In this document: piece after piece, positions 14,344-18,990 of the stretch
How positions within the stretch are numbered: position 1 is the first letter of the stretch
Layout of the letters: each line of letters starts with the position of its first letter
DNA from: Fimbriimonadaceae bacterium
GTDB lineage: Bacteria; Armatimonadota; Fimbriimonadia; Fimbriimonadales; Fimbriimonadaceae
Length of the DNA stretch: 57,147 nt
Direction of reading: 5' to 3'
Assembly (NCBI GenBank): GCA_019638835.1
Contig: JAHBTC010000003.1
Span: forward strand, 1 to 57,147
Translations under genes and position numbers: made by a program
The notes under the pieces: model-generated
The model's input: the letters and a program-made list of their open reading frames with translations, nothing else
Databases searched by the model: none
What the model was told of the DNA's origin: nothing

Positions 14344-15066
14344 ATGCAAAGAGGTGTTTATTCTGCCGGTTCGGCGATGATCAATGCGCAGTCCGCATTG
14401 GACATCATCGCGCAGAACCTCGCGAACGCCTCGACGACGGCTTACAAGCGCGATGGCATCGCGTTCAATGAAAGCCTGACTCGAACAATGGCGAACTACT
14501 CGGGCAACGGCCGAATCCTCGGCACGCTTGGCTCGGCGCCGGGAGTTCAAGTTCGATTTACGGACAACTCTGCGGGCCCGATCAACGCCACCGGACGTCC
14601 CCTCGACGTCGCACTTCGTGGCGAAGGTGCATTCGCGGTTCAGACCCCGACCGGCACCCAATATACGCGAGACGGTTCATTTACCCTTGATCGTCAACAA
14701 CGACTGGTGAGTTCCGACGGTTATCCCGTTCTGGATGGACGAGGGCGACCCATTGGTCCACTCACGGGAGAAGTTGAGATTGACGAAAACGCAAACGTGA
14801 TCGCCAACGGTCAAACGGTGGCTACCCTTGCGGTCTTCACCGGCAACTTTTCGAAAACTGGCGGCAACCTTTGCGCCTGCCCCAACCCCCAGGTCGTTCG
14901 CGACCCCCGTGTTTCCACGCGATCTCTCGAAGGAAGCAACGTACAAGCCGTTGACGAGATGATTGCCATGATCAAAACCCAGCGTGTGTTCGAGATGGCC
15001 CAACGCTCCGCTATCGGCCAAGACGAAATCACGCAACGACTTATCCAGACCCTGAACTCCCGCTAA
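14344..15066 (+). CDS. flgF: Flagellar basal-body rod protein FlgF-like
   Basis: 240 residues. The N-terminal helix has the rod/hook signature (ALDIIAQNLANASTTAYKRD), the central part has the GEGAFAVQT and YTRDGSFTLD motifs shared by FlgE/F/G, and the C-terminus has EGSNVQAVDEMIAMIKTQRVFEM. Proximal rod proteins assemble in the periplasm after export by the flagellar type III system. It is the first gene of the flagellar cluster and is directly followed by flgG, supporting FlgF rather than FlgG. It carries an unusual CACP motif (residues about 178-181) in the central domain. Confidence 0.85.
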   Translation: MQRGVYSAGSAMINAQSALDIIAQNLANASTTAYKRDGIAFNESLTRTMANYSGNGRILGTLGSAPGVQVRFTDNSAGPINATGRPLDVALRGEGAFAVQTPTGTQYTRDGSFTLDRQQRLVSSDGYPVLDGRGRPIGPLTGEVEIDENANVIANGQTVATLAVFTGNFSKTGGNLCACPNPQVVRDPRVSTRSLEGSNVQAVDEMIAMIKTQRVFEMAQRSAIGQDEITQRLIQTLNSR

Positions 15067-15175: not shown

Positions 15176-15964
15176 ATGATGAGAGCATTGAATACCGCCG
15201 GCACCGGAATGGTGGCGCAGCAGATGAACTTGGACGTCCTGGCGAACAACCTCGCCAACGTCAACACCACGGGCTTCAAATCCCAGAGGGCTGAGTTCCA
15301 AGACATCATGTACCAAACCTACCGTTCGAGCGGCGCAACAATTGGTGGCACTTTTACGGCCCCCGAATCAGCCCAGATCGGTCTTGGTTCGCGGTTTGTG
15401 GCCAGTGCCACGAGTTTCGCGCAAGGCGCACTCCAGAACGCCACTGGAACCTTTGATATGGCAATCCTTGGGAATGGTTTCTTCAAGGTTTCTCTCCCCG
15501 ATGGCTCGTTTGGCTATACGCGAGACGGATCGTTTCGCACCGACGCTAACGGCCTCGTCGTAAACCAAGACGGATACCCGCTTGAGCCAGCTATCACCGT
15601 CGAGTCGGGGACGACGGCGGTCACGATCAGCCAAGATGGCACTGTTTCCGGTACGACGCCGGGCAGTGACTCCCCCTCAACGATCGGACAGATTACAGTT
15701 TCGACTTTCCCCAATCCGGGTGGCCTGACCCGCGTTGGTCAAAACCTCTTTCGCGCAGGCGGCAACAGCGGCGACCCGTCTGATGTGGCTCCGGGGTCGC
15801 AAGGATCGGGATCCTTGGTGCAGGGTCACCTTGAGGGCTCCAATGTGCAAATCGTGGACGAGATGGTGCACATGATTACCGCTCAGCGTGCGTACGAAAT
15901 CAACTCGAAAGCGATCATGACGGCCGACGAGATGCTCTCGATCCTCAACAATCTCAAGCGGTGA
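15176..15964 (+). CDS. flgG: Flagellar distal rod protein FlgG
   Basis: 262 residues from ATG 15176 (MMRALNTAGTG), matching the usual 260; the upstream extension of the frame is ignored. Conserved FlgG features: LDVLANNLANVNTTGFKS, FQDIMYQTY, AILGNGFFKV, YTRDGSFRTD, and the C-terminal EGSNVQIVDEMVHMITAQRAYE. It forms the distal rod that passes through the P and L rings encoded downstream. It is separated by 109 bases from flgF and by only 7 bases from the following flgA-like gene. Confidence 0.95.
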   Translation: MMRALNTAGTGMVAQQMNLDVLANNLANVNTTGFKSQRAEFQDIMYQTYRSSGATIGGTFTAPESAQIGLGSRFVASATSFAQGALQNATGTFDMAILGNGFFKVSLPDGSFGYTRDGSFRTDANGLVVNQDGYPLEPAITVESGTTAVTISQDGTVSGTTPGSDSPSTIGQITVSTFPNPGGLTRVGQNLFRAGGNSGDPSDVAPGSQGSGSLVQGHLEGSNVQIVDEMVHMITAQRAYEINSKAIMTADEMLSILNNLKR

Positions 15965-15971
15965 TGACCCG

Positions 15972-17150
15972 ATGATCTGTACTCTTCTTCTCATCACCCA
16001 AGCAACAACGACTGTTCCCGTCCGAGTCGACGGGGCGGGCTACTTGCGATTCGTCGACAATGGACGCGTGGTCTACACCCGCGAAGCCGAACTCACGGTC
16101 AAAGACGGGCAAATCGTTCATAAGAGCGGGCAATCTCTCATCCCCGCGATTCGGACGACATCACCGACTTTTTCGATTGATCTTGAGGGAAATGTCCAAT
16201 CGGGAGGTAACTCTGTTGGACGGATTGTCCTCGCTTTGTTCGACTCCGAGACGCCTCAGTTTTCTGGTGTATTCGCTACAGCGACCTCTCGACCGAGATT
16301 AGGGAACCCAGGCGAGGACTTGACTGGTGTCATCCGCACGGATAGACCCACGCAGAGCCAAACCCAAACGACTGTCCCGACATCCTCAACCACCACAACC
16401 CAAACGAACAGTCGGGTGGAAATCCGTCCCTCGGATGCCGAGCGAAACCGGACCCCGGTCGCACCCGGGCACATCCGCATTCATGTACGAGGCGAAGTCG
16501 TCCTCAATGGCGACCAAGCGACCATGGCCGATATCGCCGAGATTGATGGTGTAGCCTCCGTAACTTCCTCGGTCGGTAAGGTCGTAATCACGACGACGCC
16601 ACCCGTAGGAATCAATCGAACTCTGGACATCAACTATCTGGGCGCCCGCGTTCGCCCCGCCCTACCCCCGGATACAGAGATTGATTGGGAAGGTGCAACC
16701 AAAGTCGTCATCGCCCGCGAATGCCAAACGGTTTCGGTGGATCAAATCCTTGCCGTGGCCAAGTCTGCCGCGACCGAACAAACAGGGGCTACCTTATTCA
16801 TCGATCCGACAAACCTATCGGCCATGCCCGCACCGCTTGGCGCGCTCGAAGTCGTAGCCGAGAGAGTATCAGTAAGCGGAGTTCGCATTACGGTTCAGGT
16901 AGCCGCGATGGTTGAGGGACAACGAGTTGCAACGCGAACCGTGATCCTGACCAACAACGCACCCGTTACAAATCTTCGCCCCGGTCAGCGAATCGCCGTC
17001 CGCGTTGTCCGCAATGCTCTGATCGTTGAGTTGCAAGCGACAATTCGGCAAGTTACGCCCGCCACGAATAGCGTGACGGTGCAAACCGAAGCCGGGGCAG
17101 TGCTCACCGGTTCCCTGGCAGCAGACGGAGTAGTGGAGGTGAAAGCATGA
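15972..17150 (+). CDS. flgA: FlgA-like P-ring chaperone with N-terminal FlgG-like domain
   Basis: 392 residues, much longer than typical FlgA (about 220). The C-terminal 230 residues are FlgA: an HIRIHVRGEVVLNG start, a TMADIAEIDG motif and a terminal SAF domain beginning RPGQRIAVRVVRN. Residues about 17-115 instead resemble the central domain of FlgF/FlgG (GAGYLRF, VVYTREAELTVKDG, SGQSLIPAI, FSIDLEGNVQ, VGRIVLALF). A T/S/Q-rich linker (about 118-145) joins them. FlgA helps FlgI assemble the P-ring in the periplasm. The signal peptide is short and unusual. The stop overlaps the flgH start (ATGA). Confidence 0.85.
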   Translation: MICTLLLITQATTTVPVRVDGAGYLRFVDNGRVVYTREAELTVKDGQIVHKSGQSLIPAIRTTSPTFSIDLEGNVQSGGNSVGRIVLALFDSETPQFSGVFATATSRPRLGNPGEDLTGVIRTDRPTQSQTQTTVPTSSTTTTQTNSRVEIRPSDAERNRTPVAPGHIRIHVRGEVVLNGDQATMADIAEIDGVASVTSSVGKVVITTTPPVGINRTLDINYLGARVRPALPPDTEIDWEGATKVVIARECQTVSVDQILAVAKSAATEQTGATLFIDPTNLSAMPAPLGALEVVAERVSVSGVRITVQVAAMVEGQRVATRTVILTNNAPVTNLRPGQRIAVRVVRNALIVELQATIRQVTPATNSVTVQTEAGAVLTGSLAADGVVEVKA

Positions 17151-17749
17151 TCAAGAGCCTTTGGCCGTTGCTTCTCGTAACCGTTGCTATCGGACAGGAT
17201 CAGGGTGCGATCCCTGACAAGACCAATCCTGGGTCATTGACCAGCCCGACAAGCGGCAACCCATTCATGGACCGCGTTGCACGTAGGGCGGGAGACATCG
17301 TTACGATCGTCATCGAGGAAGAAACGGTCAGTAACTTCTCCGCTTCAACAAATGCCGGCAAGACTGACAGCAACGACATTAGCGCGAACTTCTTCAATGA
17401 TTTTTTGAACCGCATCCTGCGGCCAGTGACGACAGCGGCCTCAAGTTCGGTTGGCGGCAACGGTCGGACGAATCAGACCAGCAATATGTCGGCCCGGATG
17501 AGCGTCGTAGTTCGCGAAGTCCTTCCGAACGGCAACCTTGTTCTTGAAGGAACTCGCTCACTCGTCACGAATCGCGAGACCCAAACGATTGTGCTGACAG
17601 GAATCGTGCGGCCCTTCGATATCAAGCCCGACAACACCGTGAAGAGCACGGCACTCGCCGACGCCCAGATTCGCATGGAAGGCCAAGGCATGATTGCCGA
17701 CCGCCAACGACGCGGCATCCTGACCCAAATCCTGGACTGGTTGTTCTAA
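17147..17749 (+). CDS. flgH: Flagellar L-ring protein FlgH (no lipobox cysteine)
   Basis: 200 residues, slightly short of the usual 230. The signal peptide-like start (MIKSLWPLLLVTVAIGQ) is followed by the FlgH core: ARRAGDIVTIVIEEETVSNFSA, then GNGRTNQTSNMSARMSVVVREVLPNGNLVLEG and the IVRPFDI and ADAQIRMEGQG motifs, read as separate blocks. It forms the ring in the outer membrane, so the organism has one. Most FlgH proteins are lipoproteins, but this one contains no cysteine at all. Coupled to flgA (ATGA) and flgI (TAATG). Confidence 0.93.
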   Translation: MIKSLWPLLLVTVAIGQDQGAIPDKTNPGSLTSPTSGNPFMDRVARRAGDIVTIVIEEETVSNFSASTNAGKTDSNDISANFFNDFLNRILRPVTTAASSSVGGNGRTNQTSNMSARMSVVVREVLPNGNLVLEGTRSLVTNRETQTIVLTGIVRPFDIKPDNTVKSTALADAQIRMEGQGMIADRQRRGILTQILDWLF

Positions 17750-18990
17750 TGAAGTTCATTCCCCTTTCCATCATCGTTTCCTTCGCGCTCGCCTCTGCGA
17801 CTTTCGCTCAGACGACGCCCCCGCCGACCCAAGCAGATCCGCCACTGACGGAAGGGCAGCAACGCGCCATTCAACAGCAGATGAATGAGCAGGCGGCTCA
17901 ACAAAGGCAGGCTCGACGGCTGGCGATCCAAGAAGTTGCGAGTGAGGGTTTGCCGGTAAGACTCGGAGATATCGGTGGCTTTCGCGGCGCCCGTTCCAAC
18001 AAGATCATTGGTTACGGACTGGTGGTCGGTTTACAGGGCACGGGCGACTCTCGATCCACTCCCTTCACGGCTACACTGATGGCAAACGCCCTCGCCCGTT
18101 GGGGAACCCAAGTCAACGAGCAGCAGTATCGCGCTAAGAACATCGCGGTCGTATCGGTGACCGCGGAACTGCCCGCGTTTGCCGCGCCGGGACGAAAAAT
18201 GGATGTCACGGTTAGCTCTTTAGGAGATGCCGGCAGCCTTCAAGGCGGATTCCTCCTTCCAACGACTCTGGCCGCGCTCACGAACCCCGATGATGTGTAT
18301 GCGGTAGCTAGTGGTGCCGTGAGCATCGGTGGCTATAACGTCGGCTCGGGAGGAAGTAGTCAACGTACCAATCACGCAAACGTAGCGGTGATCCAAAACG
18401 GGGCGGACGTGGAGCGCAGCGTCGCCACACAGATTCTGTTTGCGGGAAACGTCATGTTCTTCGATTTGGATGAGCCGGACTTCACAACAGTTGAGCGTGC
18501 GGTGAGCGTCATCAATAACGAATTCGTTGACATCCATGCGGTCGCCGATGATGGAGTGACGATCCGACTCATCATTCCCGAAGGTGTTCCCGCGACTTAC
18601 GCGGCCAAAGAGATTGAAGGGCTAATCGTTAAAGCGAACCTGCCTGCGAGTGTTGTGATCAATGAACGCACCGGAACGATCGTTATTGGTGGCGATGTCA
18701 AACTCGGTCCGGCAGTGATTGCACACGGCTCACTGAAGGTTCGTATTGATACCGACTTCGCGATCAGTCAACCGTTGCCGTTCAGCGATGGCCAAACCGT
18801 CGTTGTCGCCGTACCAACTACGCAAGTCCAAGAAGGTGATGCCCAGATAGCGGTCGTTGCTCCCAATGCGACCGTCGAAGATCTTGCACAGATCCTCCAG
18901 ACATTGAAGGTTTCGGCTCGCGACATTATCGCCATCTTGCAGGCGCTCGCCGACCAAGGTGCCCTCAAGGCCAGGGTGATTCAACGATGA
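17749..18990 (+). CDS. flgI: Flagellar P-ring protein FlgI
   Basis: 413 residues versus about 365 in E. coli. After a signal peptide ending at about residue 21, a roughly 45-residue proline- then glutamine-rich segment precedes the FlgI core. The core opens with RLGDIGGFRGARSNKI then GYGLVVGLQGTGD and continues with FTATLMANAL, KNIAVVSVTAELP and GRKMDVTVSSLGDA; the C-terminus has the typical VEDLAQILQTLKVS. FlgI polymerises around the rod in the periplasm or peptidoglycan layer. It overlaps flgH by one base and flgJ by four. Confidence 0.95.
   Translation: MKFIPLSIIVSFALASATFAQTTPPPTQADPPLTEGQQRAIQQQMNEQAAQQRQARRLAIQEVASEGLPVRLGDIGGFRGARSNKIIGYGLVVGLQGTGDSRSTPFTATLMANALARWGTQVNEQQYRAKNIAVVSVTAELPAFAAPGRKMDVTVSSLGDAGSLQGGFLLPTTLAALTNPDDVYAVASGAVSIGGYNVGSGGSSQRTNHANVAVIQNGADVERSVATQILFAGNVMFFDLDEPDFTTVERAVSVINNEFVDIHAVADDGVTIRLIIPEGVPATYAAKEIEGLIVKANLPASVVINERTGTIVIGGDVKLGPAVIAHGSLKVRIDTDFAISQPLPFSDGQTVVVAVPTTQVQEGDAQIAVVAPNATVEDLAQILQTLKVSARDIIAILQALADQGALKARVIQR

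Follow-up and report, generated by a model that had tools for sequence, protein, structure and literature searches.

Our analysis of a 57,147-nucleotide stretch of DNA from a Fimbriimonadaceae bacterium (contig JAHBTC010000003.1; hereafter the window) revealed an flgA gene in which, according to sequence profiles and predicted structure, a complete D1 domain of the distal rod protein FlgG stands ahead of the P-ring chaperone FlgA. The gene (15972..17150, plus strand, start codon ATG) encodes a protein of 392 aa, in which sequence, model and structure matches delineate a leader, a FlgG-type D1 domain, a linker and a FlgA core.

Domain architecture and genomic context

The D1 domain occupies residues ~13-125 (16008..16346, plus strand), as delimited by VIA-align, profile searches and the Pfam model LlgE_F_G_D1 (PF22692). 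This model matched residues 19-76 of the window protein alone (E 3.5e-5), with a score of 24.3 that is just below the curated cut-off of 27 bits, and it matched the N-domains of 36 of 38 relatives, at best with E 2.9e-13. A search of the PDB sequences with residues 1-153 of the single protein returned chance rows and no flagellar match, and a profile was therefore needed. Profile A6, built from 75 FlgA N-domains (FlgA-N) and searched against PDB sequences, matched FlgG (E 2.7e-14, spanning Salmonella FlgG 90-216), FlgE (1.8e-8) and FlgF (0.012). In the AlphaFold2 model, pLDDT was ~88-98 per ten-residue block over residues 11-120, and a separate model of residues 1-143 had a mean pLDDT of 89.7. 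Structural comparison with VIA-align gave Z 16.4 for the Salmonella FlgG fragment 6jf2 (114 residues, rmsd 2.1, FlgG residues 91-219) and Z 16.5 for the FlgE D-I domain 9wwj; the top 21 entries were rod or hook proteins only, with Z of at least 10.7, and the next entry, the first non-flagellar one, had Z 2.8. Since the D1 domain of FlgG was modelled as residues 91-222 (PMC5288503, in excerpt), the fusion holds essentially the whole of D1 and neither D0 helix. Pfam, profile and structure agree in showing the D1 domain of the rod/hook family, and on this evidence the segment is a complete FlgG-type D1. The N- and C-terminal D0 helices, which serve polymerisation, are absent from both the sequence and the model, and the window protein has no Pfam match to Flg_bb_rod or Flg_bbr_C. 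As the N-terminal segment of a rod protein is missing, export of the fused protein by the flagellar type III apparatus would not be expected.

The earlier note on this DNA had read a FlgG-like central domain ahead of FlgA, lacking the long helices that polymerise the rod. The profile and structure matches to FlgG bear this out, the helices are indeed missing, and the fold predicted for residues 17-115, on which the proposal had been staked, is that of the FlgE/FlgG D1. All five of its by-eye correspondences with FlgG lie in register in the alignment of 75 FlgA-N with 94 FlgG D1 domains. The bounds of 17-115 located the domain correctly but ended it too early, as it runs to ~125. Chance similarity of the N-domain by eye was ruled out by profile, structure and distribution, and a frameshift or mis-assembly joining two genes was ruled out by the identical continuous frame in 75 loci.

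The T/S/Q-rich linker described in the same note is present at residues ~126-164 (16347..16463, plus strand). In the AlphaFold2 model of both domains, based on 38 relatives (mean pLDDT 89, pTM 0.56), residues 126-150 are the sole longer stretch with pLDDT <50; such a pTM is to be expected where two domains have no set orientation to each other. The FlgA core follows at residues 165-392 (16464..17147, plus strand) and has the FlgA fold with a C-terminal beta-barrel (332-392). Thermotoga FlgA 17-283 (3frn) aligns with window residues 167-392 (Z 8.0 over 120 residues, rmsd 11.1), and we attribute this rmsd to a probable domain swing. The barrel matches the Salmonella FlgA structures 3vjp (Z 9.9 over 59 residues, 333-392) and 3tee (Z 8.4 over 60 residues, 332-392). 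The window core alone has no Pfam match at E<=1, and 13 of 16 aligned FlgA cores match ChapFlgA, the best at 3e-10. By sequence and model the C-terminal part is FlgA with a divergent core; what had been called a normal FlgA has the FlgA fold but a divergent sequence.

The leader comprises residues ~1-11 (15972..16004, plus strand; the end is approximate). It is hydrophobic and thus a candidate Sec signal peptide, but very short and, lacking K and R, uncharged. Among the 73 of 75 fused FlgA with a usable ATG start, K or R occurs within the first nine residues in 8, versus 25 of 33 FlgA without D1 and 70 of 77 FlgH; before this count, as before the tree, distribution and dN/dS analyses, loci repeating a genome were dropped.

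The gene belongs to an operon-like row of flgF, flgG, fused flgA, flgH and flgI, followed by flgJ-, flgN-, flgK- and flgL-like frames; the names flgH, flgJ, flgN, flgK and flgL in the window were assigned by reading the sequences. On the plus strand, flgF (14344..15066) was recognized by family-model matches, and flgG (15176..15964; TIGR02488, E 8e-97) encodes the distal rod protein, which comes closest to the fused domain in profile scores. The fused gene overlaps at its end with flgH (L ring; 17147..17749, plus strand), assigned also from gene order, and flgI (P ring; 17749..18990, plus strand) encodes the presumed client. Adjoining flgH/flgI in the rod/ring operon, the fused gene occupies the place of an flgA. 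In the neighbour listing of 38 fused loci, the upstream same-strand frame has a FlgG-like end in 37, the exception being another frame at L027, and a FlgH-like frame lies downstream in most. Among these loci no downstream FlgH-like frame is listed at L008, L014, L027, L034 and L040, and at L022 and L044 the listed downstream frame does not read FlgH-like. The same listing gives no upstream FlgG at L041, a locus without D1. In G041 and G055, two genomes of family f2, which lacks the fusion, the FlgG-like D1 match is distant from flgA or lies on a different contig, in contrast to the Fimbriimonadaceae.

Origin, distribution and divergence from rod FlgG

The FlgA-N profile gave a median of 62.5 bits with 94 FlgG D1 domains and 13.2 bits with 66 FlgF D1 domains, and in the reverse scoring of 75 FlgA-N the FlgG profile gave 32.2 and the FlgF profile 12.3, all three profiles having been built from the same loci. 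Because FlgA-N scores far closer to the D1 of FlgG than to that of FlgF, a D1 copy from the neighbouring flgG is the likely source of the fused domain. An origin from FlgF was rejected on the far lower scores of FlgF D1 with the FlgA-N profile. An origin from FlgE appears less likely on its weaker PDB match (1.8e-8 versus 2.7e-14 for FlgG), although FlgE and FlgG tied in structure, this comparison being with PDB sequences and structures rather than with local FlgE. Nine close pairs were compared for selective constraint: the dN/dS of D1 was 0-0.10 in the eight with a value, indicating purifying selection and similar to that of the FlgA core (0.03-0.32, eight pairs with a value), and the linker was looser in several pairs.

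The FlgA-core profile matched 191 of 291 genomes of the window's phylum, which is the scope of the distribution given here (no absence is claimed for other phyla). The earlier note had called for a survey of FlgA lengths across Armatimonadota and other phyla; our survey of FlgA architecture found D1 in 75 of 93 FlgA loci within the order: 69/71 in family f1 (Fimbriimonadaceae), 5/6 in f5, 1/1 in f3, 0/14 in f2 and 0/1 in f4. These loci come from 94 in-order genomes, with G023 left out owing to a FlgA split over contigs, though its N-domain was seen. Outside the order, none of the 20 FlgA loci read by frame in the same phylum has D1, and the A6 scan of 80 genomes gave only FlgG-, FlgF- and FlgE-like matches (best E 9.0e-21), judged by frame length and neighbourhood and not each against the place of FlgA. 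The loci and the scanned genomes (4 in both) cover all outside-order genomes with an FlgA match but G102 (96 of 97). Fusion-bearing genomes are labelled Fimbriimonadaceae, Fimbriimonas, Chthonomonas (MAG labels) or Armatimonadetes, and include Uphvl-Ar1 and Ar2; in a scan of the named genomes, alignment A4 detected 13 loci and the window protein by itself none.

In the FlgA-core tree, which was built by a quick method without bootstrap and has many weak branches, the presence of D1 needs three changes without the outgroup rows and four with them, and L040, the f3 locus, is placed beside the outgroup. There is modest support in these sequences for one gain of D1 and two losses, one in G036 with G126 and the other in G046. 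These three genomes have a FlgA without D1, otherwise standard, nested among fused relatives; the D1-less nested loci are L042, L087 and L092. At L042, flgA begins directly after flgG, as in a clean loss. A pseudogene remnant of D1 was rejected for G036, the one of the three genomes inspected this closely, where none is left and the short FlgA starts right after flgG.

The surface of the Salmonella rod bears acidic patches, made up of D109, D154 and E203 of FlgG, opposite K63 and K95 of FlgI, and efficient assembly of the P ring requires these two rod-facing lysines (PMC8298488, in excerpt). In the joint alignment of 75 FlgA N-domains and 94 FlgG D1 domains, the D109 equivalent is D/E in 45/75 FlgA-N (D in 78/94 FlgG), the D154 equivalent is D/E in 53/75 (41/94 in FlgG), and the E203 equivalent is leucine in 51/75. 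Within FlgG segment 178-199, the residues F, N, G, L, G, N and G are nearly invariant in the 94 FlgG; this feature of the rod/hook family is mostly not retained in the 75 FlgA-N, F90 excepted, and residues of rod packing have been lost. Arginine is found at R26 in 70/75 FlgA-N (7/94 FlgG), at R84 in 58/75 (3/94) and at R122 in 47/75 (6/94). The position of R107, basic in 60/75 FlgA-N, is acidic in 65/94 FlgG, which amounts to a charge reversal, and the median net charge is +1 for FlgA-N and -7 for FlgG D1. As residues fixed in the rod have been lost, the FlgI-facing acid has been partly kept and conserved basic residues of its own have been gained, the fused D1 is, to judge by its sequence, not a passive rod copy.

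Turning to FlgI, lysine stands at the K63 equivalent in 54/60 proteins from fused loci and 15/15 from loci without D1, and the K95 equivalent is K/R in 47/60 and 15/15, respectively, so that a basic residue is missing there in 13/60 versus 0/15; only identical stretches were removed from these counts, a few genomes may count twice, and the K95 contrast, not being independent by descent, was not used as evidence of co-evolution. The FlgI of the window keeps the K63 equivalent (K130) and has glycine (G162) at the rod-facing K95 equivalent.

Related inserts in AmpG-family transporters

The FlgA-N profile also matched a 644-aa frame in G007 (E 1.2e-12) and a 610-aa frame in G127 (E 7.5e-11). TIGR00901 matched both (E 2.8e-38 and 2.2e-43, respectively), in each case under the NCBI cut-off, and their sequences assign both frames to the AmpG family within the major-facilitator transporters; a muropeptide substrate may be supposed from these family scores below the cut-offs. 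In G127, the core profile found no FlgA, and there is no other D1 match; the insert is located between the predicted membrane helices ~149-167 and 264-282, and the helix count together with an arginine-rich stretch after the second helix places the loop that bears it probably on the periplasmic side. In Fimbriimonadaceae, AmpG-family transporters with a D1-like insert in a loop between predicted membrane helices were delineated by the FlgA-N profile at L164 (415-2232, minus strand) and L178 (988-2904, plus strand), and further inserts occur at L179-L208.

Inserts longer than 60 aa are present in 19 of 30 transporter loci (31 frames, one locus being split in two) and absent from 11. Ten of the 19 match the FlgA-N profile at E<1e-3, seven the FlgG profile and ten the FlgF profile. 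Nine FlgA-N-matching inserts score higher with FlgA-N than with the FlgG and FlgF profiles, the best insert reaching 57 bits versus 26 with FlgG, and six score best with FlgF. The conserved arginines of FlgA-N are not evident by eye in the inserts. The D1 module was thus re-used in the transporters, and FlgA was probably part of its source.

Possible function and comparison with known systems

We tentatively propose, with a probability of about 0.45, that the fused D1 acts as a surrogate of the rod surface on the FlgI chaperone. In an ancestor of some Fimbriimonadales, as homology and distribution show, a copy of the D1 of FlgG came to stand before FlgA. The fused FlgA would be exported and its core, by analogy with Salmonella FlgA, would bind FlgI; D1, swinging on the linker, could then contact the face of FlgI or the surface of the rod, which normally meet in the finished P ring. 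FlgI would be kept from premature ring closure and handed over at the rod. Salmonella FlgA binds FlgI via its C-terminal domain (PMC4895218, in excerpt), which leaves the N-terminus free for another task; the same text discusses FlgA as a possible pilot of FlgI and regards the sorting of FlgI to the nascent flagellum as an unknown mechanism. Targeting of FlgI to the rod by D1 is plausible and is consistent with the synteny, the FlgG origin of the domain and this published question. The surrogate reading is further favoured by the complete D1 fold with FlgG as its closest relative, the flgG and flgH neighbours, the low dN/dS, the retention in 69/71 loci of Fimbriimonadaceae, the acid at the D109 and D154 equivalents, and the K63 equivalent kept in 54/60 FlgI.

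The net charge of +1 versus -7, the loss of E203 and of the 178-199 residues, and the new conserved arginines speak against a simple mimic of the rod. The same charge shift, together with R107 at a position that is acidic in 65/94 FlgG and the acidic surface of the Salmonella rod (PMC5288503, in excerpt), would suit a basic D1 that docks on the rod as FlgI does with K63/K95, a rod-bound FlgA then being a landing pad; from the sequences at hand we consider such docking quite improbable. Against the surrogate, the standard FlgA without D1 in G036, G126 and G046 suggests that the domain is dispensable. These three genomes would agree with a passive spacer or a stability or solubility tag, derived from a duplicated flgG D1 and maintained because it helps the fused protein to fold; so would the flexible linker, with no fixed contact between the modelled domains (pTM 0.56), and the adjacency of flgG and flgA makes a fusion by local duplication easy. 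However, D1 has a dN/dS about as low as that of the FlgA core, it carries near-invariant FlgA-specific residues such as R26 (70/75), and it was retained in 69/71 loci, which makes a passive role doubtful.

The surrogate reading is also weakened by the loss of the FlgI K95 equivalent in the window and its non-basic state in 13/60 fused loci, and by the occurrence of the domain in transporters of the AmpG family, which do not involve a rod. This occurrence would fit a general periplasmic binding module of the lineage with a link to the cell wall and not to the rod: such a domain is present both in FlgA, which serves a ring embedded in peptidoglycan, and in one loop of putative muropeptide transporters; 10 of 19 inserts match the FlgA-N profile, nine of them better than the FlgG and FlgF profiles, and G127 carries its insert without any other D1 match. 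Such a module appears unlikely to us, as the FlgA-N arginines are not evident by eye in the inserts, the insert is missing in 11/30 loci and far more variable, the substrate is deduced only from family scores below the NCBI cut-offs, and no D1 domain is known to bind peptidoglycan. More speculatively, the D1 of the rod might have left the rod in the Fimbriimonadales and become a portable periplasmic address module, directing P-ring subunits to the rod in FlgA and re-used for another cell-wall-linked partner in the AmpG-family transporters. A structural part of a nanomachine would then have been turned into a targeting tag, an idea that we hold with little confidence.

A natural chaperone with the FlgI-facing domain of the rod offers a concrete, removable part for testing how FlgI is sorted to the rod. 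A ring chaperone bearing the outer domain of the shaft itself may hint at how the parts of the ring find their way to the shaft. A domain of the rod is here conserved in a non-rod protein, and transporters carry it as an insert. Among the publications searched, no paper describes a D1-FlgA fusion in its title or the start of its abstract.

In comparison to known systems, the window protein shares with the FlgA of Salmonella (3vjp, 3tee) and Thermotoga (3frn) the core fold, the C-terminal barrel and the place between flgG and flgH/flgI, whereas the N-terminal rod D1 and linker are absent from both. The extra domain of Thermotoga FlgA (D0, residues 17-84; PMC4895218, in excerpt) differs from the D1 of the window, since 3frn 17-283 aligns with window residues 167-392. 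With the D1 of FlgG, the N-domain has in common a complete fold and 25-26% identity to Salmonella FlgG over 112-114 residues; it differs in the absence of the D0 helices, the loss of most of the 178-199 invariants, a leader as its N-terminus and a positive charge. The AmpG-family transporters of Fimbriimonadaceae carry a similar D1 module, probably periplasmic and often closest to FlgA-N, but there it is inserted between two membrane helices and is patchy and divergent, in contrast to the N-terminal fusion in FlgA.
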